Shown piece after piece: positions 15,257-44,381 of a stretch of 64,000 bases of DNA; the first letter of the stretch is position 1; each line of letters begins with the position of its first letter. The notes under the pieces are model-generated. The model had not been told where the DNA came from. It was given only the letters and a program-made list of their open reading frames with translations, and did not search any database. Both the position numbers and the translations under genes were made by a program. The stretch covers positions 1 through 64,000 of the forward strand of contig NZ_PYGI01000018.1 of NCBI RefSeq assembly GCF_003014615.1, written 5' to 3'. Origin of the DNA: Marinobacterium halophilum (lineage in GTDB: Bacteria > Pseudomonadota > Gammaproteobacteria > Pseudomonadales > Balneatricaceae).

Positions 15257-16489
15257 ATGCGTATCTCCACAGCCCAGGTATTCCTGTCCAATCTGGATAA
15301 TTTGAGCCGTACCAACAACGATCTGTTCAAAACCCAGCAGCAACTGTCGACCGGCAAGCAGGTCCTGCAGCCATCAGATGATCCGTTGGCGGCGGCCCAG
15401 ATCATTAAGCTGAAAAAGGAAGTGGCACTCAACGATCAGTTTCAGGGCAATATCGACGTATCCCGTCGCCGCCTGGAGCTTGAAGGGATCGCGCTGGAGC
15501 AGATCAACAACATCAATATCCGCCTGCGTGAGATCAGTATTCAGGCCGGTAACGGCGTCTTGTCGGCGGCGGATCGTGACTCGTTGGCGACGGAAGTGGA
15601 TGAGATGACTCAGCAGATGTTGGGTCTGATGAACACCAAAGATGCCCAGGGCGAGTATCTGTTCGCCGGTTATCAGGGGGATGAGCCGGCCTATGCTTAC
15701 GATGAAGCGCAAAAACAGTATCTGTATCAGGGTGACAGTGGCCAGCGTTTCATCCAGATCGGGCCGGACAACCGTATCGCCTCTACTGACTCGGGACAAA
15801 AACTGTTCGAGCAGATCGAAGGGTTGGAACAGGCTGTTGTCAGCAACAACCCGGATGGTGTGCTGACCGGGGTCAGTATTAGTGATCGAGCGCTGTTTGA
15901 GGAAGCGGTCGGCGAAGCCGATTTGCCATTGTCGTTTGCTGTGGATAACACGGTGCCCCCTGAAACAATTGTGGTGACGAACCGAGACGGTGACGAGTTA
16001 TTTAACAATACAGCCGACCCTAGCGATCCCACCAACCAGTTGGAAGATGTGTTGGGACTGTCGATCAGCCTGAATACCAGCACTCCTGCGGGCAGCTACA
16101 CCGCTGAAGTAGATCTGCGTGCCGAAAAAACCAACCCGCTCAACGTGGCGCTCAAGCTCAGTGATGGCCTTAGAAACCTGGACCTGTCCGACCCTGAACA
16201 GAAAAAGGAGTTTGATTCACTGATTGCCGGCACGCTGGATACCCTGACGCAGGCGGAAGAGAGTAACATCCGTGCTCGTACCTCGCTGGGCGCACGCATC
16301 AACGCGCTGGACCAGCAGGAGTCGGTCAATACGGATTATCAGTTGTACACCAAGCAGGCACTGTCTTCCTTTGAAGACTTGGATTACGCCGATGCGATCA
16401 GCCGTTTTGCGCTACAGAAAACTGTCCTGGAAGCCGCTTATCAGAGCTTTTCGCAGATCAAGGACCTGAGCCTGTTCAAGTATATTTGA
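15257..16489 (+). CDS. flgL: Hook-filament junction protein FlgL
   Basis: This 410-residue flagellin-like protein has the N-terminus MRISTAQVFLSNLDNLSRTN and the STGKQVLQPSDDPLAAAQI motif typical of FlgL, plus a C-terminal helix ISRFALQKTVLEAAYQSFSQ. It forms the second junction ring beneath the filament and is a FlgN client. Last gene of the flgF-flgL run; it faces the convergent fliT-like gene. Confidence 0.96.
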   Translation: MRISTAQVFLSNLDNLSRTNNDLFKTQQQLSTGKQVLQPSDDPLAAAQIIKLKKEVALNDQFQGNIDVSRRRLELEGIALEQINNINIRLREISIQAGNGVLSAADRDSLATEVDEMTQQMLGLMNTKDAQGEYLFAGYQGDEPAYAYDEAQKQYLYQGDSGQRFIQIGPDNRIASTDSGQKLFEQIEGLEQAVVSNNPDGVLTGVSISDRALFEEAVGEADLPLSFAVDNTVPPETIVVTNRDGDELFNNTADPSDPTNQLEDVLGLSISLNTSTPAGSYTAEVDLRAEKTNPLNVALKLSDGLRNLDLSDPEQKKEFDSLIAGTLDTLTQAEESNIRARTSLGARINALDQQESVNTDYQLYTKQALSSFEDLDYADAISRFALQKTVLEAAYQSFSQIKDLSLFKYI

Positions 16490-16522: not shown

Positions 16523-16846
16523 TCAGCTAAAACTGCCGTAGGCCTTGCGAGCTTTTTGGTTCTGTTGCAGCTGATTGTGTTCGTGGCTGATCTTTTCTTG
16601 CTGCTGCGTGATGATGACCAATGCTTGGCGCTCAATGAGCTGTGATTGAATGAGCAGCTGTCGAATAGCTGTCAGCGTTTCTTGCGTCATATCAGGCTCG
16701 GAACTGTTTTCCAGTGCGTGAATCAGCTGAACACGTTGCTGTTGCAGTTGAGGTAAAGCATCCCAGTTCTCAGCTTCTGCGCTCTGGTGTAATGACTCTG
16801 TAACCTGCAGTAACCGTGTGGCAAGTTCATATGTATTTTCCATCAT
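16523..16846 (-). CDS. fliT: FliT-like flagellar chaperone
   Basis: This 107-residue helical protein resembles FliT, the chaperone of the filament cap FliD: a paired-helix pattern, a central basic/hydrophobic helix (DALPQLQQQRVQLIHALENS) and a KAYG ending. FliT is usually next to fliS. Here the gene is about 9 kb from fliS, on the opposite strand. Its ATG shares an A with the stop of the giant glycosyltransferase gene (TAATG), so the two are probably translated together. The FliT assignment rests on pattern and context. A role as escort for the glycosyltransferase is speculation. Confidence 0.68.
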   Translation of the reverse strand: MMENTYELATRLLQVTESLHQSAEAENWDALPQLQQQRVQLIHALENSSEPDMTQETLTAIRQLLIQSQLIERQALVIITQQQEKISHEHNQLQQNQKARKAYGSFS

Positions 16847-19800
16847 TACAGACCTAAACAGTTGTTTTCTCTATAAAATACGGCAGTGGACCATGCGACG
16901 ATGTTGATCGGCCCCATTCCGGTAAAATCAATACGCTTGAAGCCCTGTGACAGCAAAAAATTTGAGCCTTCGTCATAGGCTGATCGTTCTGCGTTATCCA
17001 AAATCACGACACCACCATCTTTGAGCGATGGCACGACATTCCTCAAACAGTTTACCCGATCGCGCCCATCCACAAATGCGATATCAAATGCATTTGCATA
17101 CTGAGGCTTCAATACTTCTCGTCCATAATCGCCACCGTACACCAGAGGGTGGTGGATGTAGTCTACATTGGACGGGAGCATGGTTTTAATTTTCTTAAAC
17201 CAGTTTTCGTCATGCTCAACAGACACCACTTTTTTCACTTTTTGGCTGAGCCAAATGGTTGAGTTTCCGCTGCCGTATTCGAAAACGCTAAACTCAGCCT
17301 TAACTCGTTCATTGAAAAAATGAATAAATGGATAGGTGACCCAAGGGACAACACCGTCGGCTGTTACGCTTTCTCTGGATAGAATGGATTTTAACCAACC
17401 TACCTGTTTCAGATAGCTTTCGGGTTTGCTTAACAGCATGTTAGCCGCTTGCTGGCTGGGCGTTTCCACGCCATCAAGTGAGATATTGATATCTTTTATA
17501 GCATGAAGGTAGTCAGCAGCAAGTTGTGTCTTGGTCTTTTTATTGCGTTTGTCCAAAAGACCATATAGATTCAATGCATAATCATACGACCCGTATGCTT
17601 CATGCATGATGTAAGCCAGCTTCATAATAGATGCATCATCAACTTTTTGTAGTTGATCAAAGTCCAACACATATACAGCATCAGCAGTCGTGAGCTGATT
17701 AATACCCTGGTGTATTTGCTTATGTACAACCATGGGAGCAAACAATCTCTTTCGCTGTTCGAGTAAGGTATGCAACATGAAGCCATGTTTGCGCATCCAT
17801 GCATCGATATCGGCAAAGAGAGGCTGGTTCTTGTACAGTGAAATAAAATTCACTTCTGTTTGAATGACCAAGCAGTTTTTCAGTTTCTCTTCTGCATTTT
17901 TGAAAACAGAAAGTTCGCCACCCTGAATATCGATTTTTAACCAGTCTATGGATTTAATTTCGTTAATATCATCTAATCTATGCGTTTTGACGGGTACTTC
18001 TTTTTTAACTTGCGCCCAAATTGGGTAGCCCTGGAAGCGATTCAGGAGTTCAAAATTTGGTTCCAGGGTTGAGGTCATGCCTTCTGCGTGACACAAGTAC
18101 AGAGTCTTTTCCTGGCCATCACCGACGGCGTGGGGTAGATATGTTTCATTTTTCCCCTTCATGCGATTGAGCTTCTTGAGTGCTTCGCTCTGAGGCTCAA
18201 AACCGACAAGGCGTACATGGCCTTTGTCGAGTAATGTGCGATATGGCGGAGTTCCGTCGATCGGGTTAGCACCGATATCGACTACGGATATCTTGGTATT
18301 GAGGCCCCAGTCAAAAGTGGCCGCAGGGGTGGCTGCAGCTGTGGGCTGGGCAGAACTGGCGGCACTTGGCTGTTGGTGGTTAGGTGTAACGATACGTGGT
18401 TGTACTTTGGTACCTGCACTCGGTGTCTTGGGCTGAAGTTGTGTTTTCAGCTTTTCGGTTGTGTAGTGGATGTATTGCTCTGCCAGTGGGTGTGAACTGC
18501 CACCTAGCACGTCGTAACTCAATCCTTTTAGCCCGTAAACGCTGTCGGCAATAAACGCCAATTTCATGCGCTGGTTGGCATTTAATCTGTGCATCCTGTC
18601 ATGGTCAGGGATGAACAGTGCGGCGGCTGCAACCAATTCGTCGCTGTAGCGGTTGGCACCGACAATATTTTGGGGCACCGGCGTATGTTCTTTCTGATCG
18701 GCAAAACAATAGAACCTGAAGCCATTTCGGCTAGCCCAATGAGCCATTTCGGTAAAGTTTGGCTGTCGGACATGCGTCGGCTGGAAGGCAACGTTGGTAT
18801 GAATCAATAATGTATCGGCCAACGACGTTTGGCCATTTTCCAGTATGGCCAAACTGTCATTCAGGTCATCAAGTACCAACCAGTCGAGGCTCGGTAATTC
18901 ATTAATTGTGTCCAATGACGCCGTTGCTACGGGCAGTTGTGCCAACAGCTGCAATGCCTGTTGTGTTGTTTGTTGCATGTGTTCGGCAGGTGCGGGTTCC
19001 AGTGTGCCGCTGTGCTGTGCCGATTGGCAGGCGTACAAGGTTGCAGGTTTGCCATTGCCCAGCGCCATGTTTGGATAGTAATGGCAGCCTGATTGGGAAA
19101 TTACCGGGTTCTTTGTTTGATTGCTGGCAGGATCGAAAACCACCAGTTCCAAGGTACCTAGATCTAGCATCTGCTTGATGATCGGCGTTTTCAGTAGCTG
19201 TGCGCCATGGTCGATGGCAATCACTCGGCCATCAAATGTCCAGTTGAACGTGTTACCTTCTGCTTCTGGAGGGGCTTCTGGGTAGTGTAGCTCGACTGGC
19301 GCGTGCTCATCTTCGAACAGCACTTCACCTTGTTCATTAAAGCTCAGTGCCGCTGGTGCTTTGTTCTCCGTATAACGCTGCCAAATGGCTCTAAGGGCAT
19401 TGTTCAGATGACCGGCAAAGGTCTCGGCATCACATACGGGTGACTGCAGTAGAACAGTGCGCAAGTGTGACCGGATGGTGGTCAGGCTATCTAGATCAGA
19501 TGCCAGCTCTAGCACGCGCTCGCGATATTCATCCCAGCTGTTCGTGACCAGCTCAGGCATGCCGGCGTTCACCAAATGGGTGGCCGAGTGCCGGCCGGCA
19601 AATGTTGGGCCTGGCATCGTGACTACAGGGACGCCCATGGAAAAGGCCTCGCAAGTTGTTAAGCCACCAGAGTAAGGCCAAGGATCAAGGGCGATATCAA
19701 CACGGTTGTAGCATGCCAACAGCTCGTTATGAGGGGAGAAGCCTTCAATGATAATGCGATGGTGGTCGATACCCTGTTGTTTCAGTACCTGCCGTGTCTG

Positions 19801-21201
19801 TTCACACAGTGCGTCTGAATTATACTCGGCACCTTTCAAAAACAGGACTGATTGAGGTAGAGCATGCATGATTAAGGCCCATTGTTCGAGTACAACGGGG
19901 TTTATTTTCATTGGATTGTTGAAACACCCTAAAGTAATAAATCCTTTCTTTCGTGAGGGCAGTTCAGCAACTTCAGGTGTGTATTCGGGCATTTCATAAC
20001 AGATATAATCGTTGGGCATTCTGATCAGTTTCTCGGTATAAAATGCGTCATCACCGTAAGGAGATTCAACGCTATCTGTGATCAGGTAGTCGACAGTGCT
20101 GAGTCCTGTTGTGTTGATGAGTCCGCCGACCCATTTTACCTGTACAGGGGCCGGTTGCATGGCAAGTACGGGGACACGGGAGCCGTTGTTGTAACCAGCC
20201 AGGTCGATCAGTATGTCGATTTCATCCTGACGAATTTGTTCTGCCAGTTCCGCATCGCTCATATGAATAGTAACGTGGTAGTGACTGATTGCTTTGAATC
20301 GCTCAGTCACAGGATCAACCCTGCCACAGCTGCTATACGCATATAACTCAAAGGCATTTTTCGGTAAACGCTCTAGTGCCGCGATGATCATGCGACCGAC
20401 CGGGTGGATGCGGAAACCATCTGAAATCATGCCGACTCGAAGCGTCTTTCCGTTTGATAAGTCAGCCGAAGTGGGACGTTTTCGTGGGGTTTCAGTACTC
20501 CGGCGCTCCCATTCAAGGCAGGCGTTGAAAATGGTTTCTTGCGTTTGCACAGGATCATAGTGCAGCGAAGTCAGTAAATTGGAAAAGGCACTGATATTAT
20601 TCGGCTCGAGTCTAATGGCATGGTTGAAGCAGTGCTGTGCATCATTAGGTGAGCCTAACGCGTTATACAATATGCCAGCGTTATTCCAGTAGCGACTTGA
20701 ATCTGGAAAGGTTTCCAGCAATGAGTTCACTAAGGCCAGGGCATCCGTATGCCGGTTTAGCTGAGCGAGAACGGTGCTCTTGTGAAACAGGTACTCACTG
20801 TAATTGGGGTTGAGCTGCAATGCCTGATCAATGGACGCCAAAGCCTTATCGAGTTGGTGTTGCTGCTTGTAAATATAGGAAAAGAAAAAATGTGTATCGG
20901 GCAGCGTAGGGTCATTGTCCAGAGAATGTTGAAGTGCAATTAAAGCCTTTCCGTCTTGGCCGCGGTTGATATGCATCTGCCCTTCAAACTGCAACATTTG
21001 TGCATCTTCGGGTGTGTGCTCAAGCCCTTTGCGTATAGCTGTTTCGGCATCGTCCCACTGTCCCTTTTGAATGGCGTATATTGCTATTTTTCTCCAGGGA
21101 TTTTGGGTGTTATTCGCTGCTGAAAGCATAGATGCCTGCTGCTTGCCATGTTGCTTGTGACGGTTCTTGCTGTGTTCTTTGTTGCGAGTGTTCTTAGCCA
21201 T
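16846..21201 (-). CDS. Multi-module SPINDLY/OGT-type glycosyltransferase with FkbM and methyltransferase domains
   Basis: This 1451-residue protein probably glycosylates flagellin and may methylate the glycan. Module order: basic tail (1-30); TPR repeats (about 35-235); OGT/SPINDLY catalytic region (about 250-610) with H266 in the IHPVGR motif, K432 in NPMKINP and DPWPYSGGLTTCEAFSMGVP at 506-525, matching the UDP-sugar site of O-GlcNAc transferases; a degenerate FkbM-like domain (about 655-905); an Ala/Pro/Gln linker (920-965); a second FkbM domain with an intact-looking SAM motif VDIGANP (974-980) and D1091; and a class I methyltransferase-like domain (about 1285-1445) with VFEYGSGNSTIW and FVDGRDR. 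It lies between flgL and fliC, reads against both, and looks AT-richer than its neighbours, especially the 3' half, suggesting acquisition. The glycan and donor sugar cannot be predicted. Confidence 0.85.
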   Translation of the reverse strand: MAKNTRNKEHSKNRHKQHGKQQASMLSAANNTQNPWRKIAIYAIQKGQWDDAETAIRKGLEHTPEDAQMLQFEGQMHINRGQDGKALIALQHSLDNDPTLPDTHFFFSYIYKQQHQLDKALASIDQALQLNPNYSEYLFHKSTVLAQLNRHTDALALVNSLLETFPDSSRYWNNAGILYNALGSPNDAQHCFNHAIRLEPNNISAFSNLLTSLHYDPVQTQETIFNACLEWERRSTETPRKRPTSADLSNGKTLRVGMISDGFRIHPVGRMIIAALERLPKNAFELYAYSSCGRVDPVTERFKAISHYHVTIHMSDAELAEQIRQDEIDILIDLAGYNNGSRVPVLAMQPAPVQVKWVGGLINTTGLSTVDYLITDSVESPYGDDAFYTEKLIRMPNDYICYEMPEYTPEVAELPSRKKGFITLGCFNNPMKINPVVLEQWALIMHALPQSVLFLKGAEYNSDALCEQTRQVLKQQGIDHHRIIIEGFSPHNELLACYNRVDIALDPWPYSGGLTTCEAFSMGVPVVTMPGPTFAGRHSATHLVNAGMPELVTNSWDEYRERVLELASDLDSLTTIRSHLRTVLLQSPVCDAETFAGHLNNALRAIWQRYTENKAPAALSFNEQGEVLFEDEHAPVELHYPEAPPEAEGNTFNWTFDGRVIAIDHGAQLLKTPIIKQMLDLGTLELVVFDPASNQTKNPVISQSGCHYYPNMALGNGKPATLYACQSAQHSGTLEPAPAEHMQQTTQQALQLLAQLPVATASLDTINELPSLDWLVLDDLNDSLAILENGQTSLADTLLIHTNVAFQPTHVRQPNFTEMAHWASRNGFRFYCFADQKEHTPVPQNIVGANRYSDELVAAAALFIPDHDRMHRLNANQRMKLAFIADSVYGLKGLSYDVLGGSSHPLAEQYIHYTTEKLKTQLQPKTPSAGTKVQPRIVTPNHQQPSAASSAQPTAAATPAATFDWGLNTKISVVDIGANPIDGTPPYRTLLDKGHVRLVGFEPQSEALKKLNRMKGKNETYLPHAVGDGQEKTLYLCHAEGMTSTLEPNFELLNRFQGYPIWAQVKKEVPVKTHRLDDINEIKSIDWLKIDIQGGELSVFKNAEEKLKNCLVIQTEVNFISLYKNQPLFADIDAWMRKHGFMLHTLLEQRKRLFAPMVVHKQIHQGINQLTTADAVYVLDFDQLQKVDDASIMKLAYIMHEAYGSYDYALNLYGLLDKRNKKTKTQLAADYLHAIKDINISLDGVETPSQQAANMLLSKPESYLKQVGWLKSILSRESVTADGVVPWVTYPFIHFFNERVKAEFSVFEYGSGNSTIWLSQKVKKVVSVEHDENWFKKIKTMLPSNVDYIHHPLVYGGDYGREVLKPQYANAFDIAFVDGRDRVNCLRNVVPSLKDGGVVILDNAERSAYDEGSNFLLSQGFKRIDFTGMGPINIVAWSTAVFYRENNCLGL

Positions 21202-21306: not shown

Positions 21307-21333
21307 TTAAGTCATGAGAACGTAGGCCGATAA
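21307..21333 (+). promoter_or_regulatory. Sigma-28 (FliA) promoter of fliC
   Basis: TTAAGTCA (21307-21314) is followed after 11 bases by a perfect GCCGATAA (21326-21333). The -35 matches five of eight consensus positions. Transcription should start near 21340, giving a leader of about 110 bases before the fliC ATG. Confidence 0.88.
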
Positions 21334-21449: not shown

Positions 21450-23228
21450 ATGGCTATGGTAATCAATTCAAACATTATGTCGCTCAACGCGCAGAACCAG
21501 CTGACCAAAAGTCAGAATGACCTCAATACCTCAATGGAGCGTCTGACCAGTGGTAAGCGTATCAACTCCGCTGCTGATGATGCTGCAGGTCTGGCCATTG
21601 CCAACCGTATGACCTCTCAGATTCGTGGTTTGGATCAGGCGGTGCGTAACGCCAACGACGGCCAGGCACTGATTCAGACTGCCGAAGGCGCTTTGGATGA
21701 AACCAGCAACATTCTGCAGCGTATGCGTGAACTGTCTATTCAGTCTGCAAACGGAACCTACGATTCAGGTAACCGCTCGACCTTGAATGCAGAAGTGATG
21801 CAGCTGCAGGAAGAGATCACCCGTATCGCCGATACTACCAGCTTCAACGGTCAGAACCTGTTGGACGGCAGTCTGGGTGAGTTGACCTTGCAGGTAGGCT
21901 CTGAAGCGAACCAGACCATCTCCACTGAAATCGGCAAGCTGGATGCGAAAGGTCTTGGTGGTGAAGCAGGTGGTGATGTAGTAGGGGCTGCTGCAACTGG
22001 CGGTACCTTGGTCGCAGGCTTGACACTGCTGAACAGCTCAACCTCAATGACAATCAACTCTCAGGCAGTGGGCGACTTGTCTGATTCTGCCAACCTGCAG
22101 GAAGCGCTGGATTCCATCAACGAAAAAGTCTCTGGTGTTGAGGTGTCAGCCTTTACCGAGATGACAGCAGCTGATGAAGGTACCGGTATTATCCGTGATA
22201 CCAATGTTCTTGAGTTGAGCATTGTGGGTCCGGGCGCCGAGAGTAATACGATTCAGATCACTGACACCGGCAGTATGGAGGAGCTGGTTGAAGAAATTAA
22301 CTCTCAGGCAGCAGGTCAGCTGACCGCTTCTCTGGATGAAAACGGCAAATTGCAGATCGCAAGCGAAACCGGCGCGACACTGACAGTAGCCACTGATAGT
22401 GCCGATAAGCTTGCAGGTGCCCAGGCATCGGGCTTTGTTGCTGATACAGCCACAGCTGTTGATGGTTCTGAAAATGTGACCGGTAATGCTCAGCTGTCCT
22501 TCACCATCACCGATAGTAATGTTGATAGCGTAGATGTTGCGTTCACCAATGGTGCTACTGGCCAGGCCGCTTCCGCTGCAATTGGTGTACAGACCCGTGA
22601 TGGTGCCGATATTACTGGTGTTGCAAATACTGGCCAGGCAGCATTGAATGAAGGTGACATCACCCTCAATGGTGTTGAAATCGGGGCTGTCGCTGCTGGT
22701 ACAGGTGCCGTGACTCAGGGTGCGAATCTGGCTGAAGCGATCAATAAAATGAGCGCAGAAACTGGTGTGGTCGCAACTGCTGATGGAACTACTGGTGCAC
22801 TGACGCTGGACTCTGTCTCTGGTGATGAGATTTCTATCGACTTCCGAGATGGCAGCAACGCAACGCTTGCCAATACCGGTTTGATTGAAACCAATAATGC
22901 TACCTCTGTTGGCAACTCCGTCGCCGATATCGACATCTCTACTGTGGCCGGTGCCCAGAAAGCGATCGATATTCTCGACAGTGCATTGGAACAGGTGAGC
23001 AGCATTCGTGGTGACCTCGGTGCGGTGAGTAACCGTCTGGACTCCACCATGAGCAACCTGGCCAACATCTCCGAGAACCAGTCAGCGGCCCGTTCACGAA
23101 TTGAAGATGCTGACTTTGCCGCTGAATCGGCTAACCTGTCCCGTGCACAGGTACTGCAGCAGGCGGGTACTGCCATGCTGTCCCAGGCCAATGCAGCACC
23201 GCAGCAGGTCCTGTCACTGCTGCAGTAA
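21450..23228 (+). CDS. fliC: Flagellin FliC
   Basis: This 592-residue filament subunit has conserved D0/D1 ends: NIMSLNAQNQLTKSQNDLNT and RMTSQIRGLDQAVRNANDGQ at the N-terminus, SRIEDADFAAESANLSRAQV and APQQVLSLLQ at the C-terminus. The middle (about 175-490) is long, rich in Ala/Thr/Asn/Gly and contains flagellin_IN-like segments; it would be the exposed, potentially glycosylated D2/D3 region. A strong GAGGAGA site precedes the ATG, and a sigma-28 promoter and terminator frame the gene. Only one flagellin gene is present here. Confidence 0.97.
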   Translation: MAMVINSNIMSLNAQNQLTKSQNDLNTSMERLTSGKRINSAADDAAGLAIANRMTSQIRGLDQAVRNANDGQALIQTAEGALDETSNILQRMRELSIQSANGTYDSGNRSTLNAEVMQLQEEITRIADTTSFNGQNLLDGSLGELTLQVGSEANQTISTEIGKLDAKGLGGEAGGDVVGAAATGGTLVAGLTLLNSSTSMTINSQAVGDLSDSANLQEALDSINEKVSGVEVSAFTEMTAADEGTGIIRDTNVLELSIVGPGAESNTIQITDTGSMEELVEEINSQAAGQLTASLDENGKLQIASETGATLTVATDSADKLAGAQASGFVADTATAVDGSENVTGNAQLSFTITDSNVDSVDVAFTNGATGQAASAAIGVQTRDGADITGVANTGQAALNEGDITLNGVEIGAVAAGTGAVTQGANLAEAINKMSAETGVVATADGTTGALTLDSVSGDEISIDFRDGSNATLANTGLIETNNATSVGNSVADIDISTVAGAQKAIDILDSALEQVSSIRGDLGAVSNRLDSTMSNLANISENQSAARSRIEDADFAAESANLSRAQVLQQAGTAMLSQANAAPQQVLSLLQ

Positions 23229-30335: not shown

Positions 30336-30461
30336 TAATTCAGGGGGATAGAGGGGCTTCGGTATAACCGTGTTATCCAACTCGCATACGCCGACAACAG
30401 CAACTATAACCAAGTGCGGCGTAATAGGTATAACAACAACACGCAAGTTAAGGGCATCACG

Positions 30462-32417
30462 ATGAGTGAACAAAATATTTATCCGGTTGATCCGGCTTTC
30501 GCTGCCAAGGCACACATTGACAACGATACCTACCTGGCAATGTATGAGCAGTCGATCAATGATCCTGACGCTTTCTGGGGTGAGCAGGGCAAGCGTCTGG
30601 AATGGTTCAAGCCGTACACCAAGGTCAAGAACACCTCTTTCGATCCGCACAACGTCAATATCAAGTGGTATGAAGACGGCGAGCTGAACGCCGCCTACAA
30701 CTGTCTGGACCGTCATCTTGAAACCCGTGGTGATCAGGTAGCGATCATCTGGGAAGGCGACAACCCGAGCGAAGACGAAAAAATAACCTATCGTGACCTG
30801 CACGCGCGCGTATGCCGCTTTGCCAATGCGCTGAAGGCCAAGGGCGTCGAGAAGGGTGACGTGGTCACGCTGTACATGCCGATGATTCCGGAAGCTGCGG
30901 TAGCCATGCTGGCCTGTGCCCGCATTGGTGCGGTTCACTCCATCGTGTTCGGCGGCTTCTCACCGGAAGCGGTGGCTGCCCGTATCGAGGGGGCCAAATC
31001 TAAAGTCGTCGTAACCTCCAACTATTCTCTGCGTGGTGGCAAGGTTGTGCCGCTGAAAGAGAACGTCGACAAGGCGCTGGACAACCATGAAGCCGGTAAC
31101 CTGATTGAAACCGTGTTCGTGGTCAAGCGCGTGGAAAAAGATGTTGCCTGGAATGACAGCCGCGATGTCTGGTATGAAGAGGCAGTTGCTGGGCAGTCGG
31201 CTGAGTGCCCGGCCGAGCCGATGAATGCGGAAGCTCCGTTGTTCATTCTGTACACCTCAGGTTCAACCGGTGCGCCCAAGGGGCTTGAGCACACTACCGG
31301 CGGCTACATGGTTTATGCCTCCATGACCCACGAGTACGTCTTTGACTATCACGAAGGGGATGTGTACTGGTGTACAGCCGACGTGGGCTGGGTCACTGGC
31401 CACAGCTATATCGTGTACGGTCCGCTGGCGAACGGTGCCACCACGCTGATGTTTGAAGGTGTGCCGAACTATCCGGACAACAGCCGTTTTGGTCGTGTGA
31501 TCGAGAAGCACAAGGTTAACCAGTTCTACACCGCACCGACCGCTATCCGCGCGTTGATGCAGCAGGGTGAAGATGTACTGGGTGATGCTGATCTGTCCAG
31601 CCTCAAGCTGCTGGGGTCTGTTGGCGAGCCGATCAACCCGGAAGCCTGGACCTGGTACCACCGTATCTTCGGTAACGGCAAATGCCCCATCGTTGATACC
31701 TGGTGGCAGACCGAGACTGGCGGCATCATGATTGTACCGCTGCCGGGCGCAACTCCGACCAAACCTGGCTCTGCTGCCCGCCCGTTCTTTGGCGTACAGC
31801 CGGCGCTGTTGGATGGCGAAGGCAACGAGCTGGAGGGTGAAGCGGCAGGCAGTCTGGTGATCAAGGATTCTTGGCCGGGTCAGAGCCGTTCCATCTGGGG
31901 TGACCATGAGCGCTTCACCCAAACCTACTTCACCAGCTTCAAGGGTGTATATACCACAGGTGACGGTGCCCGCCGTGATGAAGACGGTTACTACTGGATT
32001 ACCGGTCGCGTCGATGATGTGATCAACGTATCCGGCCACCGCATGGGTACCGCCGAGGTTGAATCTGCGCTGGTTGCGCACGCAGCAGTTGCTGAAGCGG
32101 CTGTGGTTGGCTACCCGCATGACCTCAAGGGGCAGGGTATCTACGTGTATGTGACGCTGCAGACCGGTTACGAACAATCCGACGAGTTGATGAAAGAGCT
32201 GCGCAACTGGGTACGTACCGAAATTGGTCCGATCGCGTCGCCTGACCTGATCCAGTTTGCACCGGGCATGCCGAAAACCCGTTCGGGCAAGATCATGCGC
32301 CGTATCCTGCGCAAAATCGCCGAGGACGACTTCGCCGCTTTGGGTGATACCTCGACGCTTGCAGACCCGAGTGTGGTGGATGATCTGATCGAACACCGGA
32401 TGAACCGCAAAGGCTGA
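30462..32417 (+). CDS. acs: Acetyl-CoA synthetase (AMP-forming)
   Basis: The 651-residue enzyme converts acetate, ATP and CoA to acetyl-CoA for growth on acetate. Motifs: adenylate-binding [24 protein letters not shown], and the C-terminal [15 protein letters not shown] with the lysine acetylated in the Pat/CobB regulatory system. The length equals that of E. coli Acs (652). The ATG at 30462 follows AAGGG at good spacing; the in-frame GTG at 30414 lacks homologous sequence. A strong terminator follows. Confidence 0.97.
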
Positions 32418-32445
32418 ACCCAAGCCAATACCTGCAGGTAACAAG

Positions 32446-32479
32446 AACGCCCCCGACAGCAGTGCCGGGGGCGTTTTTT
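32446..32479 (+). terminator. Rho-independent terminator after acs
   Basis: AACGCCCCCG (32446-32455) pairs with CGGGGGCGTT (32466-32475), followed by a T run to 32479. It lies 28 bases past the acs stop. Confidence 0.93.
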
Positions 32480-32492
32480 GTGGGTGATCTGG

Positions 32493-32523
32493 CGACAAAG
32501 CCGTGGCAGATGCGGCTTTGTCG
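32493..32523. promoter_or_regulatory. Perfect 11-bp hairpin upstream of crbR
   Basis: CGACAAAGCCG (32493-32503) pairs perfectly with CGGCTTTGTCG (32513-32523) around a nine-base loop. There is no U run, so it is not a typical terminator. It lies 91 bases before crbR and might be an operator or leader structure. Confidence 0.45.
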
Positions 32524-32614
32524 GTGAAGTGGTGCTATTATTGCCCACCGGTAATATTACTGTTCGATACCCGCCTGGACCGGCTTGGGTCCAAAAGCAC
32601 CAGGGAGATGATGT

Positions 32615-33277
32615 ATGCAATTGGCACAGAAAATCATTATTGCGGATGACCACCCTCTTTTCCGCGCGGCACTGCGCCAGGCGGTGACCCAGGCGGTGCC
32701 CGGTGTTGAGATTGTGGAAGCAGACAGCCACGCGGCGGTTCAGGAAGCGGTGGTACAGCATAGTGATGCCGACCTGGTGCTGTTGGATATTCATATGCCG
32801 GGTACACACGGCTTTTCGGGTCTGGTGTTTCTGCGCGGCCAGCACCCGGGCATGCCGGTCATCGTGGTGTCCGGCAGTGAAGAGACCCATGTGATGAAAC
32901 GGGCGATCGATTACGGTGCGTCGGGCTTCATTCCCAAGTCGTCTCCGCTGGAAACCATCTCGGCAGCCATCACGGCGGTACTTGAAGGTGAAGAGTGGCT
33001 GCCGCAGGAACTGACTGACAACATGGATGACGTCAGCGAAGAAGATCAACAGTTTGCCGCGGCGCTGGTTTCCCTGACCCCGCAGCAGTTCCGCGTGTTG
33101 ACCATGTTGACCGAAGGTTTGCTGAACAAGCAGATCGCCTATGAGCTTAGCGTGTCAGAAGCGACCATCAAGGCCCATGTGACCGCCATTCTGCGTAAGC
33201 TCGGAGTACACAGCCGTACTCAGGCGGTGATTGCTGCCCAGCGCTTGGGCGTTGAACCCCCCAAGACCGAAGGCTGA
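32615..33277 (+). CDS. crbR: LuxR-family response regulator CrbR/ErdR
   Basis: The 220-residue regulator has a receiver domain (about 5-120) with D11/D12 and phospho-acceptor D58 in LVLLDIHMPG, and a LuxR/NarL HTH (about 150-215: LNKQIAYELSVSEATIKAHV). Its place between acs and crbS, and its resemblance to regulators known as ErdR or CrbR that activate acs, support a role in acetate metabolism. It converges on crbS with about 63 bases between the stops. Confidence 0.85.
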   Translation: MQLAQKIIIADDHPLFRAALRQAVTQAVPGVEIVEADSHAAVQEAVVQHSDADLVLLDIHMPGTHGFSGLVFLRGQHPGMPVIVVSGSEETHVMKRAIDYGASGFIPKSSPLETISAAITAVLEGEEWLPQELTDNMDDVSEEDQQFAAALVSLTPQQFRVLTMLTEGLLNKQIAYELSVSEATIKAHVTAILRKLGVHSRTQAVIAAQRLGVEPPKTEG

Positions 33278-33340
33278 TCAGTACCGGCACCCGGCGGGTG
33301 ATTGCCCGCACGCGGGCGCCCACCCACCCGATATGCCGTG

Positions 33341-36300
33341 TTACCCCCCCTTGTCCTTTTCCATCCGCACCGTCGCAATAATCTTGTTGATCATCGCCCG
33401 TAGAGCCGCCGGCTTGATCGGTTTGGTCAGCAGCTGGGCTCCTGCTTCCCTGATTTCGTCCCGTACCTCGTCGGTCCGGTCCGCCGTGATCACAATGGCC
33501 GGGGCAAAGTAGCCGGTTGCTGCATCGGTGCCATCCAACGCTGCCAGCTGGCGCAGGGCCATGACGCCGGTTTCGGTTTCGCCCAGGTGGTAATCGGCCA
33601 GTACGATATCCGGCGTCCATTGCCGAGTCTGTATGGCCTCCAGAGCGGCATCGCCGGACAGCGCGGTGACCACTTCACAGGACCAGCCGTTGAGCAGGGC
33701 ACTCATGCCTTCGAGGATCTTCGGTTCATTATCGATCACCAGCACCTTGATGCCGTTCAACCCCTTGCTGCGAATCCAGCCGCGTTTTTCCGGGCGCGCC
33801 TTTTGTGCCAGTGCCGCTTCGCCCAGTGGCAGTGTGATGCTGAACACGGTGCCCTGGCCGAGCCATGAGCGTACTTGGATCTGGTGGCCCAGCATGCGGG
33901 CAATACGGTCTGTGATGGCCAGTCCCAGACCCAGCCCCTTGACCTGACTGTGCTTGGGGTTGTCGATGCGCTTAAACTCTTCGAACACTTCACGCAGCTT
34001 GTTTTCAGGGATGCCGACACCGGTATCCCATACCTCAAGGCGCAAGTGTTTGCCGACGCGGCGTGCGCCCATCAGCACCCGCCCCGAAGCGGTATAGCGC
34101 ATGGCGTTGGAAAGAAAATTCTGCATGATGCGGCGCAACAGAGCCTGGTCGGAATGGACGACTTGGCGGCAGCTCACGGTATCCAGTCGAAGGCCTTTTT
34201 CCCGTGCCAGCGCGCTGAATTCGGTGCTGAGTGTCTGGAACAGGTTTTCCAGTGAGAAATGGGTCAGGTTAGGTTCGAGTGCGCCGGCATCCAGTTTGGA
34301 AATGTCGAGAATGGTTGTGATCAGTTCCTCGGCGGCCTTTAACGAGCCATCCAGATTCTCGACCAACTGGTGTGTATCTTCGCCATGGCTTTGCTGTGCC
34401 AGTGCCGAGGTAAACAGGCGGGCTGCATTCAGCGGCTGCAGCAGGTCATGGCTGGCAGCCGCAAGAAAGCGGGTCTTGCCGAAGTTGGCCGCTTCCGCAT
34501 CGGACTTGGCCTGGCGCAGTTCGTCTTCCATCAACGCCCGGATTGTATTCTCCTTGCGCAGTTCCTTGTTCACCACGGACAGCGCATGGGTACGTTCGCG
34601 TACGCGTTGTTCCAGATTCTCGTTATTTTCCTGCAGTGCCTGTTCCGCCTTGCGGCGTTCGGTGATGTCCTGATACAGGGTGAAGTAACCGAGTACGTCG
34701 CCGTATTCGCCAATATGGGGAATGTAGGTCACTTCCGCAAAGCGTACGCTGTTGTCATGGGTTGGCAGCCGGGTTTCAAAACGTTGGCGCTCGCCGCGCA
34801 GCACTGCGTCAATATAATGACGTCGGTGCAAATACTCCTCTTCCGGGAGGGCATCCAGCGCGGAAACACCGGCAATATTGTGCCGGTCGAGGCCGAAGGC
34901 ATCGGCATAGGCCTTGTTAATGAACAGGAAGCGCTTTTCCGGGTCCAGATAGCCGATCAGGACCGGCACGTTATCGGTGTAGATACGGATATTCTGTTCG
35001 CTTTCGCGCAGGGCTTCCTCAATATGCTTGTGGTCCGTGATGTCCATGTAGGTGTTGACATAACCGCCATTGGGCATCGGGTTGCCGCGTACTTCCAGCA
35101 CCGTACCGTCCGGTCGGAAGCGTTCATAGGAATGTGGCACACCGGAGCGGATCGATTCCAGCCGCATCTTGACCTGATATTCGACATCACCCAGGCCATA
35201 CTCGCCCTTGATGGCGTTGTAGCGGAACACTTCCTCGATCGGGCGGCCGATGCAGATCAGGCCGTCCGGGTAGTTGAACATGTCGATATAGGGTCGGTTC
35301 CAGGCGACTACACGCATCTGCTGGTCAACCACGCTGATGCCGAGGCTGATGTTCTCGATGGTGGACTGCAGCAGCGAACGGTTGAAACGCAGCGCCTGGG
35401 AAGCTTCGTCAACGATGGTCACGACGTCGCCGATCTCCATCTCCTTGCCACGCAGGGTCGAATCCATGACGATCCGTGCTGATGAGGCGCCGATGGCACC
35501 CGCAAGCAGACGTTCGGTGTGCTGAATCAATTCGGGAGTGGCTTTTTCGGCGGCCATCGGCGGACCGTCACCTTGGCTCTGGCCGAAGCTGCTGAAGGCC
35601 TGACGGGTACGGCTCATGCCCAGAAAACGCTCACTGAGCATCTGCAGGTCACCCACGGTGACTTGGCCGAAGTGGCGTGATGGGTCGGCAATGCCCTTGG
35701 CCGAAACTGTTACGAAGGCGCTGGCCTGAATGCGGTCGACCAGACGCTGAGTGGCGAAACGTGAGACCAGTACAAACAGCAGCAGATTGACGCCCAGGCT
35801 CCAGAGGACGCCATGGGTGAGCGGGTCCATACCGGTAAAGCCGAACAGGCTGGTGGGACTGAGCCAGCCGTCACTGCCACTCAGCTGTGGCAGCCATTCG
35901 TAGGGAATCAGGCGTGCAGAGTTGAGCGTGGGCAGCACCAAGGTATAGAGCCAGAGTAGAAAACCGGCGCTCAGACCTGCCAGCACACCATGGCGGGTGC
36001 CACCTTTCCAGTAAATACCGCCGATGATCGCGGGCATGAACTGGATGGCGGCAACAAAGGCGAGCAGTCCAAAGGAGGCCAGAGGGCCCTGTTCACCCAG
36101 TATCCGATAGTAGAAATAGCCCATCAGCAGCAGGCAGAAGATGGTAATGCGGCGTACCCGCAGCAACAGGGCTCCCAGGTCCTTGGATTGCGACAGACGC
36201 AGCCAGGAGATGCGGAGCAGCAGCGGCATCACAATATCATTACAGACCATCGTGGCCAGGGTGATGCTGGCGACGATCACCATACTGGTGGCTGCTGACA

Positions 36301-37303
36301 GGCCACCGATAAACGCCAGCGTTGCCAGTTTTTCCGACCCGGCTGCCAGGGGCAGCATCAATACAAAGGTATCGGCGTCGACATCGCTGTTGTTGAACAC
36401 AATCAGACCGCCGGTGGCAATCGGCAGCACGAACAGGGCCATCAGCAGCAGGTACAGGGGGAACAGCCAGCGGGCGGTAAACAGATTGCGGCGCTGAGTA
36501 TTCTCGACGATGCTGACATGAAACTGGCGGGGCAAGCAGAAGGCCGCCGCGCAGGCGAGCACAATTTCGGTCATGAAGCCGGTGTTGAGCGGCGAGCTGA
36601 AGTTGTCGTTGTAACGCAGCTGCGCCTGGATCTGGAAACCAAGATCATCAATGCCTTCAAAGATGCCGAAGACCACAAACAGGCCGACCGCGACGAAGGC
36701 GGTCAGCTTGATCAGGGATTCGAAGGCTACGGCCAGCACCAGCCCCTCGTGGTGCTCGGTGGCGTCGATATGGCGGGTGCCGAACAGAATGGCGAATACG
36801 GCCATGATCAGCGCCACGAACAGGGCTGTGTCACTGCCTTTGCTCATCGCTTCGGTCACCCCTGGGGCCAGCGCGTTGTAACTGATGGCAACGGCCTTCA
36901 ACTGCAGGGCGATATAGGGGATGGTGCCCATGACAGCGAGCAGGGTTACCAGCACCGCAAGGCTCTGGCTCTTGCCATACCTTGACGAGATGAAGTCGGA
37001 AATTGTGGTGATGTTCTGCTGTTTGCTGACCAGAAAAATCTTTTCAATCACCCGGATAGCCAGCAAAAATACGATGACCGGCCCGAGGTAGGTTGCCATA
37101 AACTCCCACCCCGTCGATGCGGCCCTGCCGACGGCGCCGTAAAAGGTCCAGCTGGAACAATAGACAGCCAGTGACAGTGAATAGACCACCGGGTTGCTGG
37201 CCCACTGCTTGCCGGCGCTGCTTTTGTCACCGAAGTAAGCGATGGCAAACAGCAGGCCAAGATAGGCCAGGGAGATCAGGATGATGGACCAGCCGGACAG
37301 CAT
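33341..37303 (-). CDS. crbS: SSS-domain hybrid sensor kinase CrbS/MxtR
   Basis: The 1320-residue hybrid kinase starts with a sodium:solute symporter-like membrane region (about 1-515, about 13 hydrophobic segments). Two PAS domains follow (about 645-755 and 770-885), then a coiled coil (885-940), a HisKA H-box with H952 in ASHDLLQPLNAA, an ATPase domain (DTGVGIPE at 1093-1100, GLGLGLAI) and a receiver with D1237 in IVLADYH. This layout is that of CrbS/MxtR kinases, which with CrbR/ErdR control acs and acetate transport. The gene is divergent from the first symporter pair. Confidence 0.88.
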   Translation of the reverse strand: MLSGWSIILISLAYLGLLFAIAYFGDKSSAGKQWASNPVVYSLSLAVYCSSWTFYGAVGRAASTGWEFMATYLGPVIVFLLAIRVIEKIFLVSKQQNITTISDFISSRYGKSQSLAVLVTLLAVMGTIPYIALQLKAVAISYNALAPGVTEAMSKGSDTALFVALIMAVFAILFGTRHIDATEHHEGLVLAVAFESLIKLTAFVAVGLFVVFGIFEGIDDLGFQIQAQLRYNDNFSSPLNTGFMTEIVLACAAAFCLPRQFHVSIVENTQRRNLFTARWLFPLYLLLMALFVLPIATGGLIVFNNSDVDADTFVLMLPLAAGSEKLATLAFIGGLSAATSMVIVASITLATMVCNDIVMPLLLRISWLRLSQSKDLGALLLRVRRITIFCLLLMGYFYYRILGEQGPLASFGLLAFVAAIQFMPAIIGGIYWKGGTRHGVLAGLSAGFLLWLYTLVLPTLNSARLIPYEWLPQLSGSDGWLSPTSLFGFTGMDPLTHGVLWSLGVNLLLFVLVSRFATQRLVDRIQASAFVTVSAKGIADPSRHFGQVTVGDLQMLSERFLGMSRTRQAFSSFGQSQGDGPPMAAEKATPELIQHTERLLAGAIGASSARIVMDSTLRGKEMEIGDVVTIVDEASQALRFNRSLLQSTIENISLGISVVDQQMRVVAWNRPYIDMFNYPDGLICIGRPIEEVFRYNAIKGEYGLGDVEYQVKMRLESIRSGVPHSYERFRPDGTVLEVRGNPMPNGGYVNTYMDITDHKHIEEALRESEQNIRIYTDNVPVLIGYLDPEKRFLFINKAYADAFGLDRHNIAGVSALDALPEEEYLHRRHYIDAVLRGERQRFETRLPTHDNSVRFAEVTYIPHIGEYGDVLGYFTLYQDITERRKAEQALQENNENLEQRVRERTHALSVVNKELRKENTIRALMEDELRQAKSDAEAANFGKTRFLAAASHDLLQPLNAARLFTSALAQQSHGEDTHQLVENLDGSLKAAEELITTILDISKLDAGALEPNLTHFSLENLFQTLSTEFSALAREKGLRLDTVSCRQVVHSDQALLRRIMQNFLSNAMRYTASGRVLMGARRVGKHLRLEVWDTGVGIPENKLREVFEEFKRIDNPKHSQVKGLGLGLAITDRIARMLGHQIQVRSWLGQGTVFSITLPLGEAALAQKARPEKRGWIRSKGLNGIKVLVIDNEPKILEGMSALLNGWSCEVVTALSGDAALEAIQTRQWTPDIVLADYHLGETETGVMALRQLAALDGTDAATGYFAPAIVITADRTDEVRDEIREAGAQLLTKPIKPAALRAMINKIIATVRMEKDKGG

Positions 37304-37525
37304 AGCGAATCTCTCGTATCAGGGTTCTTGAGCGGAGTGTAACGGTGATTGCCTGATGCTGTAACCGCTGTTGCGGCCAAAGCTGTGTTGAGGCGGATCA
37401 TTAATACCGTTTTTCATACGTGACTATTGTATTACATGCTCAGAGTCATGTTTTTGGCGCTTTCAAATAATCCTTTGATTTATATGGATTAATTTAATTT
37501 TTGTACGAATGAATTATAGGCGTTC
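37304..37525. other. Divergent intergenic region crbS / symporter pair
   Basis: The start-to-start gap between crbS and the DUF4212 gene is 313 bases and no gene is visible in it. The 37390-37510 portion is distinctly AT-rich, as expected for promoters. No sigma-54 or sigma-28 motif was seen. A palindromic candidate operator lies at 37526. Confidence 0.5.
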
Positions 37526-37535
37526 TACTAAAGTC
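37526..37535. promoter_or_regulatory. Candidate CrbR operator, first symporter pair
   Basis: TACTAAAGTC, followed by GGGGC, matches the GACYAAWGTC core at nine of ten positions. It lies 81 bases before the DUF4212 ATG. The 14-base block ACTAAAGTCGGGGC is identical to the block before the second pair. Confidence 0.5.
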
Positions 37536-37616
37536 GGGGCTTTTATTGGCTCGCGTCTTTATGCAAGATCGAAGGGTATATTCTCGGCTCCAATAACAAG
37601 AAAACGGAGAAACATC

Positions 37617-37877
37617 ATGGCAGATGATAAATCCAAAGCTGCTCACTACTGGTCGACGAATCTTCGTCTGATCATGGGAAGCCTGGTTGTGTGGGCGTTC
37701 GTGTCCTACGGCTGTGGCATCCTGTTTCGCCCGCTGCTTTCGGGTATAGCGGTCGGCGGTGCCGACCTCGGTTTCTGGTTTGCTCAGCAGGGCGCCATTC
37801 TGACCTTTATCGTGATCATTTTCTTCTATGCCTGGAGAATGAACAAGCTCGATAAAGAGATGGGTTTGGAGGAGTAA
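37617..37877 (+). CDS. DUF4212 small symporter subunit, copy 1
   Basis: This 86-residue protein has two membrane segments (LIMGSLVVWAFVSYGCGILF and AILTFIVIIFFYAWRM) and the family motif LGFWFAQQG. Such proteins accompany VC_2705-type sodium:solute symporters and are predicted small subunits. The ATG at 37617 is chosen for its ACGGAG site; upstream sequence in frame lacks family features. The symporter gene follows after six bases. Confidence 0.9.
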   Translation: MADDKSKAAHYWSTNLRLIMGSLVVWAFVSYGCGILFRPLLSGIAVGGADLGFWFAQQGAILTFIVIIFFYAWRMNKLDKEMGLEE

Positions 37878-37883
37878 GCCAGT

Positions 37884-39677
37884 ATGAGTCAATTTGCAAT
37901 CAACCTGATTTTCGTGGGTGCATCATTCGCACTCTATTTTGGTATTGCGATCTGGGCCCGTGCCGGATCCACCAAAGAGTTCTACGTCGCTGGCGGCGGT
38001 GTCCACCCGGTCGCTAACGGTATGGCGACGGCAGCCGACTGGATGTCAGCGGCGTCCTTTATCTCCATGGCAGGCCTGTTGTCGGCCGGTTATGTCAACT
38101 CTTCCTTCCTGATGGGCTGGACCGGTGGTTATGTACTGCTGGCGATGCTGCTGGCACCTTACCTGCGCAAGTTCGGCAAGTTCACAGTGCCTGACTTCAT
38201 CGGTGATCGATTCTACAGCCGCGGTGCCCGTCTGGTTGCCGTTATCTGTTTGATCGTTGCGTCCGTGACCTATGTAATCGGTCAGATGGCCGGTGCCGGC
38301 GTTGCCTTTGCCCGCTTCCTTGAAGTGAGCAATACCGCAGGTATCTGGATTGCGGCCGGTGTCGTATTCTTCTACGCCGTATTCGGCGGCATGAAGGGGA
38401 TCACCTATACGCAGGTCGCGCAGTACGTCGTGCTGATCGTTGCCTACACAATTCCGGCGGTATTCATTTCACTGCAGCTGACTGGCAACCCGTTGCCGAT
38501 GTTCGGCATGTTTGGTGACTACACCGCTGAAGGCGCGGCCAATGCGGTGCCGTTGCTGGAAAAACTGGATCTGGTCGTACGTGACCTGGGCTTCCGTGAT
38601 TACACGGCTGATGTCGATAACAAACTCAACATGCTGCTGTTCACCCTGTCGCTGATGATCGGTACTGCGGGCCTGCCGCACGTTATCATCCGCTTCTTCA
38701 CCGTACCCAAGGTGGCTGATGCACGCTGGTCTGCCGGCTGGGCACTGATCTTCATCGCACTGCTGTACCTGACGGCTCCGGCTGTTGGTTCCATGGCGCG
38801 TCTGAACCTGATCAAAACCGTCTACCCGGCGGGTGTTGAGCAAGATGCACTGTTGTATGCCGATCGTCCCGAGTGGGTCAAAACCTGGGAAGAAACCGGT
38901 CTGGTCAAGTATGAAGACAAGAACGCAGACGGCCGTATCCAGATGTACAACGACAAGGCTGGCAGTGCTGAAGCTGACGCTTTTGCTGCAACCGCTGAGG
39001 CACGTGGCTGGAACGGTAACGAACTGGTCGTGAACAACGATATTCTGGTACTGGCTAACCCTGAAATTGCACAGCTGCCAGGTTGGGTTATCGGCCTGAT
39101 TGCGGCGGGTGGTATTGCGGCTGCGCTGTCTACTGCAGCGGGTCTGTTGCTGGCGATCTCTTCGGCGATTTCCCATGACTTGATCAAAACCATGATCAAT
39201 CCGAACATCAGTGAAAAAGGCGAACTGACGGCTGCCCGTATCTCCATGGGTGTGGCGATTCTGGTCGCAACCTATCTGGGCTTGAATCCGCCCGGGTTCG
39301 CCGCGCAGACGGTCGCACTGGCCTTCGGTATTGCAGGTGCCTCCATCTTCCCGGCGTTGATGATGGGTATCTTCTCCAAGCGTGTGAACAACAAGGGTGC
39401 AGTTGCCGGTATGGTAGCGGGTCTGACGGCTACGCTGGTATACATCTTCACCTTCCTGGGCTGGTTCTTCATTCCGGGTACCGCAACGCTGGCGAATACG
39501 CCTGATAACTGGATCCTGGGCATCTCGCCGCTGTCGTTTGGTGCGATTGGTGCGATGATCAACTTCGCCGTGGCCTTCGCCGTGTCGTACATGACTGACG
39601 AGCCGCCGGTTGAAATTCAGGAGCTGGTTGAAAGCGTACGCTACCCGAAAGGTGCTGGTGCCGCAGTTGACCACTAA
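37884..39677 (+). CDS. Sodium:solute symporter, VC_2705 subfamily, copy 1
   Basis: This 597-residue integral membrane protein of the SSS family begins with a FALYFGIAIWARAGSTKEFY segment and has GGGVHPVANGMATAADWMSA and GGMKGITYTQVAQYVVL, typical of acetate-type carriers related to ActP. A hydrophilic insert rich in acidic residues (about 315-370) is characteristic of the VC_2705 branch. With acs and crbSR nearby, acetate or a related short-chain acid is the likely substrate; this is inferred from context. Confidence 0.92.
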   Translation: MSQFAINLIFVGASFALYFGIAIWARAGSTKEFYVAGGGVHPVANGMATAADWMSAASFISMAGLLSAGYVNSSFLMGWTGGYVLLAMLLAPYLRKFGKFTVPDFIGDRFYSRGARLVAVICLIVASVTYVIGQMAGAGVAFARFLEVSNTAGIWIAAGVVFFYAVFGGMKGITYTQVAQYVVLIVAYTIPAVFISLQLTGNPLPMFGMFGDYTAEGAANAVPLLEKLDLVVRDLGFRDYTADVDNKLNMLLFTLSLMIGTAGLPHVIIRFFTVPKVADARWSAGWALIFIALLYLTAPAVGSMARLNLIKTVYPAGVEQDALLYADRPEWVKTWEETGLVKYEDKNADGRIQMYNDKAGSAEADAFAATAEARGWNGNELVVNNDILVLANPEIAQLPGWVIGLIAAGGIAAALSTAAGLLLAISSAISHDLIKTMINPNISEKGELTAARISMGVAILVATYLGLNPPGFAAQTVALAFGIAGASIFPALMMGIFSKRVNNKGAVAGMVAGLTATLVYIFTFLGWFFIPGTATLANTPDNWILGISPLSFGAIGAMINFAVAFAVSYMTDEPPVEIQELVESVRYPKGAGAAVDH

Positions 39678-39728
39678 GCATAATAGACCCGAGACGGGCC
39701 GCGAGGCCTGACCAAGGGTGAACTACCT

Positions 39729-39758
39729 CGGGCTTCCAATTGGAAGCCCGACTTTTTT
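39729..39758 (+). terminator. Rho-independent terminator after symporter copy 1
   Basis: CGGGCTTCC/GGAAGCCCG with loop AATT is a perfect nine-base stem followed by ACTTTTTTC. It lies 51 bases past the symporter stop and just before the orphan gene. Confidence 0.92.
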
Positions 39759-39773
39759 CGGGAATGGAAACAT

Positions 39774-40283
39774 ATGATCTGGAATCTGGTTGCAGTCGTG
39801 TTTGCGGGTTTGGGAGCGGCAGGCGTCGCGATGTTGTTGCGCCTGTTGAGCAAAAAGAAACTGCCAAAGTGGATTATTCCGGCATTTGCCGGTGTCGGCA
39901 TGTTGGCCAGTCAAATCTACATGGAGTACACGGCACTGGATCTGATCAAGCAACGGTTGCCTGAAGGGACTGTGGTCATGTCCACTGAAACCGGCTCCAT
40001 GGTGTGGCGTCCCTGGACCTACTATTACCCGATGGATGTGGCGTTCACCGCGCTGGACGAACGCAGTATCGAGCGAGGTTTCAATAACGGCAAACAGGGA
40101 GTCAAGTTTGTGCTTTACCGTTTTGAAAAGCATTATGTGGCTCAAGTAAAGCCGCATCAGCAGTTGCTGGATTGTGAAAGTGGCAACATGCTGACGCTGG
40201 ATGAGCAGGGTCAGCCGGATCTTGCGTCGGTCGTTAAGCTGGAAGCGGGAGACCGCTTGCGCCAACGGCTTTGTCAGGGCTAA
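39774..40283 (+). CDS. Unrecognised small membrane-anchored protein
   Basis: This 169-residue protein is not recognised. It has two hydrophobic N-terminal segments (MIWNLVAVVFAGLGAAGVAM and WIIPAFAGVGMLASQIYMEY) separated by a basic loop (LLSKKKLPK). A soluble C-terminal part follows (about 65-169: TGSMVWRPWTYYYPMDVAFT). GGGAATGG precedes the ATG. It sits alone between a terminator and the second symporter promoter region, yet keeps good codon structure. Its place suggests a role linked to the symporters or to membrane energetics, but no function is proposed. Confidence 0.75.
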   Translation: MIWNLVAVVFAGLGAAGVAMLLRLLSKKKLPKWIIPAFAGVGMLASQIYMEYTALDLIKQRLPEGTVVMSTETGSMVWRPWTYYYPMDVAFTALDERSIERGFNNGKQGVKFVLYRFEKHYVAQVKPHQQLLDCESGNMLTLDEQGQPDLASVVKLEAGDRLRQRLCQG

Positions 40284-40303
40284 GCCGAAGTCTGTAATGC
40301 TCC

Positions 40304-40313
40304 GACTAAAGTC
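40304..40313. promoter_or_regulatory. Candidate CrbR operator, second symporter pair
   Basis: GACTAAAGTC lies in the 14-base palindrome CCGACTAAAGTCGG (40302-40315), 83 bases before the DUF4212 start, almost the same distance as in copy 1. Confidence 0.55.
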
Positions 40314-44375: not shown

Positions 44376-44381
44376 ACCACG

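Follow-up and report, generated by a model that had tools for sequence, protein, structure and literature searches.

A GT41 protein with a degenerate FkbM-like domain and differing C-terminal tails, encoded beside flagellin in Marinobacterium halophilum

The Large Gene and Its Flagellar Neighbourhood

The window analysed here (the whole 64,000-nt stretch of M. halophilum contig NZ_PYGI01000018.1) contains an open reading frame of 1451 aa at 16846..21201 on the minus strand. An initial annotation had proposed this ORF without naming its strand and had placed it between flgL and fliC; the ORF and its place are both borne out, as the single open frame across 16846–21201 is that of the minus strand, the plus strand being dense with stops, and flgL and fliC are supported by Pfam. 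The large gene faces flgL (15257–16489; Pfam) and is directly followed on the minus strand by a FliT-like gene (16523..16846; PF05400, E = 4.8e-8); in the sequence TAATG, the stop codon of the former and the start codon of the latter overlap. The flagellin gene fliC (21450..23228, plus strand; Pfam Flagellin_N/C), which encodes the presumed substrate, is divergent from the large gene and lies 248 bases from it. A σ28-like site of the flagellin gene (21307..21333, plus strand; TTAAGTCA-N11-GCCGATAA) follows what we take to be the σ28 consensus; GCCGATAA is present in four of five aligned relatives, with one mismatch in G004, while no promoter was identified for the large gene itself.

Around the large gene, flgK, flgL, fliC, flaG, fliD, fliS, and fleQ are supported by Pfam, while the labels flgI, flgJ, fleS, and fleR were assigned by eye and are presumptive. 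No nucleotide-sugar genes adjoining the large gene were seen in the window, and the gene is the sole GT41 locus found in its genome (3.65 Mb, 47 contigs). The flagellar cluster is interrupted between fleR and fliF (window positions 30414–45011) by a set of genes that looks like one for the use of acetate, with an acetyl-CoA synthetase-like ORF (30414–32417, named by eye) and, according to Pfam, two SSF symporters and one DUF294/CBS protein.

Domain Architecture

The initial annotation had described four modules; TPR, GT41, two FkbM-type, and, marginally, methyltransferase-like regions were matched, which makes five when the TPR part is counted. The TPR region (about aa 36–213; 20563..21096, minus strand; Pfam) is the presumed flagellin-binding part. 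It is followed by the GT41 catalytic region (aa 221–620; 19342..20541, minus strand), identified by Pfam (163.9 bits against a cut-off of 25, E = 6e-48), by alignment, and by PDB matches to 5djs (252 bits), SPINDLY (238), XcOGT (163), and human OGT (about 147); with the full-length protein as query, SPINDLY ranks first. The OGT fold, absence of which would have counted against the initial annotation, is thus established by homology to solved structures, not by a model. H266, K432, and DPWPYSGG (506–513) were found at the positions claimed for them, within blocks that align to SPINDLY and to OGTs of bacteria, and among 29 aligned GT41 proteins H266 is shared by 25, K432 by 28, and D506 by all 29; H266, K432, and the DxxPY block are presumably catalytic.

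The second FkbM-type copy is intact (aa 962–1207; 17581..18318, minus strand; Pfam, TIGR01444, and motif alignment). Pfam reports FkbM in one stretch only (aa 975–1141, E = 5e-23), and aa 962–1207 score above both curated cut-offs (PF05050 and TIGR01444) and retain the DxGAN, FEP, and KxDxxGxE motifs, which we take to define the family and which can also be seen in aligned homologues. The FkbM family is mostly associated with O-methylation of small molecules and sugars. A profile of the intact domain had no match in the PDB at E = 0.1.

The first copy, hereafter psi-FkbM (aa 641–905; 18487..19281, minus strand), was missed by Pfam and was identified by BLAST, hhalign, and alignment. It is homologous to the intact copy (BLAST 30% identity, E = 5e-32; hhalign E = 3.6e-38), and the two share a C-terminal extension; however, where the intact copy has DIGAN and LKIDIQGGE, psi-FkbM has DHGAQ and LVLDDLNDS. 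Of 17 aligned homologues, none retains the K or the E of KxDxxGxE, one retains the N of motif I (DxGxN), and 12 retain its G, while D24, D50, P51, and D138 (domain numbering) are invariant; G080, whose tail is 96% identical to that of G079, was left outside this alignment, and a separate alignment including it shows the same losses. Because the Lys and Glu of KxDxxGxE are gone in 17/17 homologues, this conserved domain is probably not a working second methyltransferase, judging from its sequence. Lacking the intact motifs of an FkbM methyltransferase, it is classed here as an FkbM-like fold only, so that the earlier description of two FkbM-type domains stands for the fold but not for two methyltransferases. 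A psi-FkbM profile had no PDB match at E ≤ 1, and a structure prediction from an alignment of only psi-FkbM and the intact FkbM domain of the window was unusable (mean pLDDT 40.6).

The C-terminal class I methyltransferase-like domain (aa 1240–1451; 16849..17484, minus strand) gave a marginal Pfam match (Methyltransf_24, aa 1308–1403, 29.2 bits where the cut-off is 26.3) and carries EYGSGNST, a candidate for the SAM-binding ExGxG region. As a profile it matches 3cvo with E = 1.3e-49, whereas the window sequence alone matches weakly (E = 6.7e-4); 3cvo is itself labelled a methyltransferase-like protein of unknown function. Structure prediction of aa 1220–1451 from the window sequence alone was likewise unusable (mean pLDDT 41.7).

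A search of genome contigs with the whole gene returned one locus, a free-standing methyltransferase-like ORF on a Bacteroidia contig, and hence no relative along the gene's full length. Against the window's last domain this ORF scores 202, as compared to 88–119 for the eight other tails compared; because the Bacteroidia ORF is closer than the tails of the relatives, the scores fit a separate acquisition of the last domain. A plasmid search gave 138 records matching parts of the query, none of which covers 80% of it. One plasmid locus (L144; NZ_CP115852.1, 4930–6834) encodes a free-standing FkbM protein that shares 44% identity with the FkbM module of the window across 255 residues, adjoins a Thr-rich repeat protein, and is near a gene for a peptidase-domain ABC transporter. 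The methyltransferase gene beside this FkbM gene was considered as a relative of the C-terminal domain and rejected, as comparison shows no relation.

Distribution and Genomic Context of the Relatives

Genome samples contained one genome per species and were drawn evenly. Within the genus, the protein or a relative is encoded in three of eight genomes, namely that of the window, G004 (a protein of 1166 aa), and G005 (one of 1017 aa), and the other five are without one. In the family, 17/116 genomes have a GT41 match, 16 of them above the cut-off. With psi-FkbM as query, relatives were found order-wide in 15/390 genomes (11/142 genera), 13 of the 15 lying outside the genus and spread over four other families; the family search added G079 and G080, which belong to a different genus of this family, and the overall psi-FkbM set comprises 18 ORFs in 17 genomes. 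Class-wide, psi-FkbM occurs in at least two of 369 genomes, both in this order (up to seven candidates were scored per genome), and GT41 in 83/369. In the 16 psi-bearing relatives with a GT41 domain, that domain shares 49–67% identity with its counterpart in the window. As to how widespread the fusion is, psi-FkbM relatives recur in the order, and the window's combination of FkbM and methyltransferase-like domains in the tail was found in 1/18 ORFs.

The order flgL, fliT, large gene, fliC is identical in the window, G004, G079, and G080, and in G005 the large gene is likewise divergent from fliC. Outside the genus, a flagellin-like ORF adjoins the gene in 12/13 genomes; in the thirteenth (G420) the gene has a flaG-like ORF on one side and a contig end on the other. 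The gene thus stands beside flagellin in several lineages, the arrangement looked for in a flagellin-glycosylation locus. Together with the strong GT41 homology, this neighbourhood, which recurs in other genera and four other families, supports the initial proposal that a multi-domain enzyme of the OGT/SPINDLY type is linked to flagellin. In two genomes of the same genus that lack the gene (G007 and G001), a FliT-like ORF lies directly between flgL and fliC; a third without it (G006) has a cluster with NeuB and a cytidylyltransferase upstream of four flagellins. Modification systems seem to replace each other in the genus.

The gene had also been described as AT-richer than its neighbours and therefore probably acquired. 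GC3 is 0.52–0.55 in the TPR, GT41, and psi-FkbM parts and 0.46–0.47 in the FkbM and last domains, as compared to 0.65–0.69 for flgI to flgL, 0.52 for fliC, 0.54 for flaG, and 0.51 for fliT. The description therefore holds against flgI–flgL and for the last two domains, but the TPR, GT41, and psi-FkbM parts match fliC, flaG, and fliT; a foreign composition of the whole gene was rejected, as GC3 sets apart only the last two domains. Acquisition is supported by the patchy presence in the genus (3/8 genomes) and by the two same-genus genomes with only fliT at this place, but composition marks mainly the last two domains.

Tails Behind the Constant Core

The 18 psi-FkbM ORFs differ in what follows the domain. 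Eight have a methyltransferase-like tail alone (G004, G079, G080, G306, G432, G215, G418, and G402), and one ORF each has FkbM plus a methyltransferase-like domain (the window's), FkbM (G448), GT2 plus a methyltransferase-like domain (G242), or FkbM plus Sulfotransfer_2 (G344, with about 360 residues without assignment before them). Three have a sulfotransferase (one ORF in G420 and a tandem pair in G311), two have no tail (≤60 residues; G278 and G255), and one has a GT2 tail, with psi-FkbM after a GT4 domain and neither TPR nor GT41 (G187). Tails were classed by Pfam for 11/18 ORFs and by BLAST and length for G306, G432, G215, G402, the second G311 copy, G278, and G255. For the tails of G004, G079, G080, and G418, in which Pfam recognised no methyltransferase, the assignment comes from BLAST against the other tails and against the last domain of the window's protein (E = 6e-7 to 3e-9 in these four) and from the profile match to 3cvo.

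The two tandem TPR-GT41-psi-FkbM-sulfotransferase genes of G311 (L106, 7372–14409) have one flagellin adjoining. In G187 (L103, 7993–11499), psi-FkbM lies between GT4 and GT2 and the gene adjoins two flagellin ORFs of equal length; the degenerate domain thus also occurs with other glycosyltransferases. In the relative in G005, which lacks psi-FkbM, the C-terminal domain is Glyco_transf_56/WecF-like; within locus L039 (1–18171), this GT41-WecF-like fusion is adjoined by aminotransferase, WbqC, FAD oxidoreductase, and TylF-like genes, with genes for type VI secretion past fliS on the opposite side.

In a tree of 22 GT41 domains, G432 (methyltransferase-like tail) and G344 (FkbM plus sulfotransferase) are sisters (support 100/100). 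The same tree joins G278, without a tail, to G402, with one (100/99), and places the tailless G255 among sulfotransferase forms (99/95); these last differences may be simple loss. Nine of the 19 inner branches are open, and exchange events were therefore not counted. The tail of G004 is 55% identical to that of G242 and 29% to that of G306, whereas its psi-FkbM is 51% identical to that of G306 and 31% to that of G242; the two parts therefore have different histories. Between the window's protein and that of G448, from another family, FkbM is 69%, GT41 62%, psi-FkbM 43%, and TPR 25% identical; this gap alone is no proof of exchange, because psi-FkbM is less conserved in other pairs too, its rate of change in the pairs compared being higher than that of GT41 or of the tails. 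From these comparisons, the constant TPR-GT41-psi-FkbM core with its differing tails looks like an exchangeable kit for flagellar decoration.

Proposed Function and Alternatives

We consider it reasonably likely that the protein is a cytoplasmic flagellin O-glycosyltransferase with built-in tailoring, here methylation, in which psi-FkbM closes the constant core; our confidence is not higher because the methyltransferase assignments of the tails come from BLAST and one profile, not from Pfam. The TPR part would hold unfolded flagellin, a role suggested by analogy with FlmG, and the GT41 part would add a sugar to Ser or Thr. The FkbM domain, perhaps together with the C-terminal methyltransferase-like domain, would then O-methylate this sugar before export, while psi-FkbM may serve as a non-catalytic spacer or docking piece at the end of the core. 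A UDP-sugar such as UDP-GlcNAc would be favoured as donor. SPINDLY uses GDP-fucose, which is unlikely here because a search of this genome for gmd gave only a distant best match (49.6 bits against a cut-off of 415); an absent gmd is still compatible with salvage or with a gap in the 47-contig assembly.

A further-reaching reading, which we put forward tentatively as a possibility, is that of a single-chain assembly line, in which a flagellin-binding, sugar-adding core would be linked through a dead methyltransferase fold, as coupling joint, to methyl-, sulfo-, or glycosyltransferase cassettes swapped between species, the filament surface chemistry being altered via the 3′ end of the gene. If so, one gene would suffice both to attach a flagellar glycan and to complete it, and a new 3′ end would change the filament surface, the part that phages, grazers, and hosts meet. 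The relatives are natural chimeras in which a possible coupling of a protein glycosyltransferase, through a pseudo-enzyme domain, to methylation or sulfation of its sugar can be studied, and the labels "SPINDLY" or "FkbM" describe such genes only in part.

Among the alternatives, the protein may be nothing new but a large member of the known enterobacterial GT41-methyltransferase enzymes, its tail differences being ordinary island variability; methyltransferase domains are described in nearly all island GT41 enzymes, and the islands as very variable (PMC4875605). We nevertheless regard this as unlikely, in view of the class-wide scan, with up to seven candidates scored per genome, in which psi-FkbM was found in at least two of 369 genomes, both in this order; the enterobacterial proteins were considered by description only.

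It is quite improbable that the methyltransferase parts act on the flagellin protein (Lys or other side chains, in the manner of FliB) and not on the sugar: the intact domain is FkbM, of a family tied to small-molecule and sugar O-methylation, and the sulfo- and glycosyltransferases among the other tails fit a glycan, as methyl, sulfate, and second-sugar transfer all do. Protein methylation would accord with a last domain that has no known substrate and with the FliB-type flagellin methylation islands common in Enterobacteriaceae (PMC4875605).

We give equally little credence to a different target (FliD, hook-associated proteins, an adhesin, or another flagellar or surface protein), with fliC adjacency reflecting shared regulation only, for which the coupling in the window to a FliT-like gene, not to the flagellin chaperone FliS, and the Thr-rich repeat protein beside the related plasmid FkbM gene might speak, since flagellin adjoins the gene directly in 12/13 genomes outside the genus while the surroundings differ.

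Comparison with Known Systems

The fusion of GT41 with a methyltransferase has precedents, because such proteins of flagellin islands have already been published for Enterobacteriaceae (De Maayer and Cowan 2016, PMC4875605). In the account given there of flagellin islands in 194 strains, the GT41 enzymes carry AdoMet methyltransferase domains, eight excepted, and FkbM genes also occur in the islands. Like the window's protein, the island enzymes have a SPINDLY domain, are encoded by inserts beside fliC, and hold the methyltransferase domain in the same chain; unlike the window's gene, the inserts lie between fliC and fliA, and in the passages describing the islands neither a degenerate FkbM domain nor a tail with a sulfotransferase or glycosyltransferase is mentioned (PMC4875605). 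In the literature searched, a scope outside which most subscription journals fall, neither an exchange of tails nor an FkbM domain that is degenerate yet conserved was found described.

Within the FkbM family (PF05050, TIGR01444), aa 962–1207 are a member and aa 641–905 a paralogue without the motif residues. The solved GT41 proteins, i.e., 5djs (a TPR_2 repeat protein), SPINDLY (7y4i/8dtf), XcOGT (2vsn), and human OGT, combine TPR and GT41 as the window's protein does but, unlike it, contain no methyltransferase domains. Caulobacter FlmG differs from the window's protein in its length (596 residues), in the pseudaminic acid that it adds, and in that no tailoring domain is mentioned in the passages describing it (PMC7591256). 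The two are alike in an N-terminal TPR part, a GT-B transferase part, and cytoplasmic flagellin O-glycosylation, which for the window's protein is predicted; in FlmG, the TPR part binds flagellins and the GT part alone is insufficient (PMC7591256).
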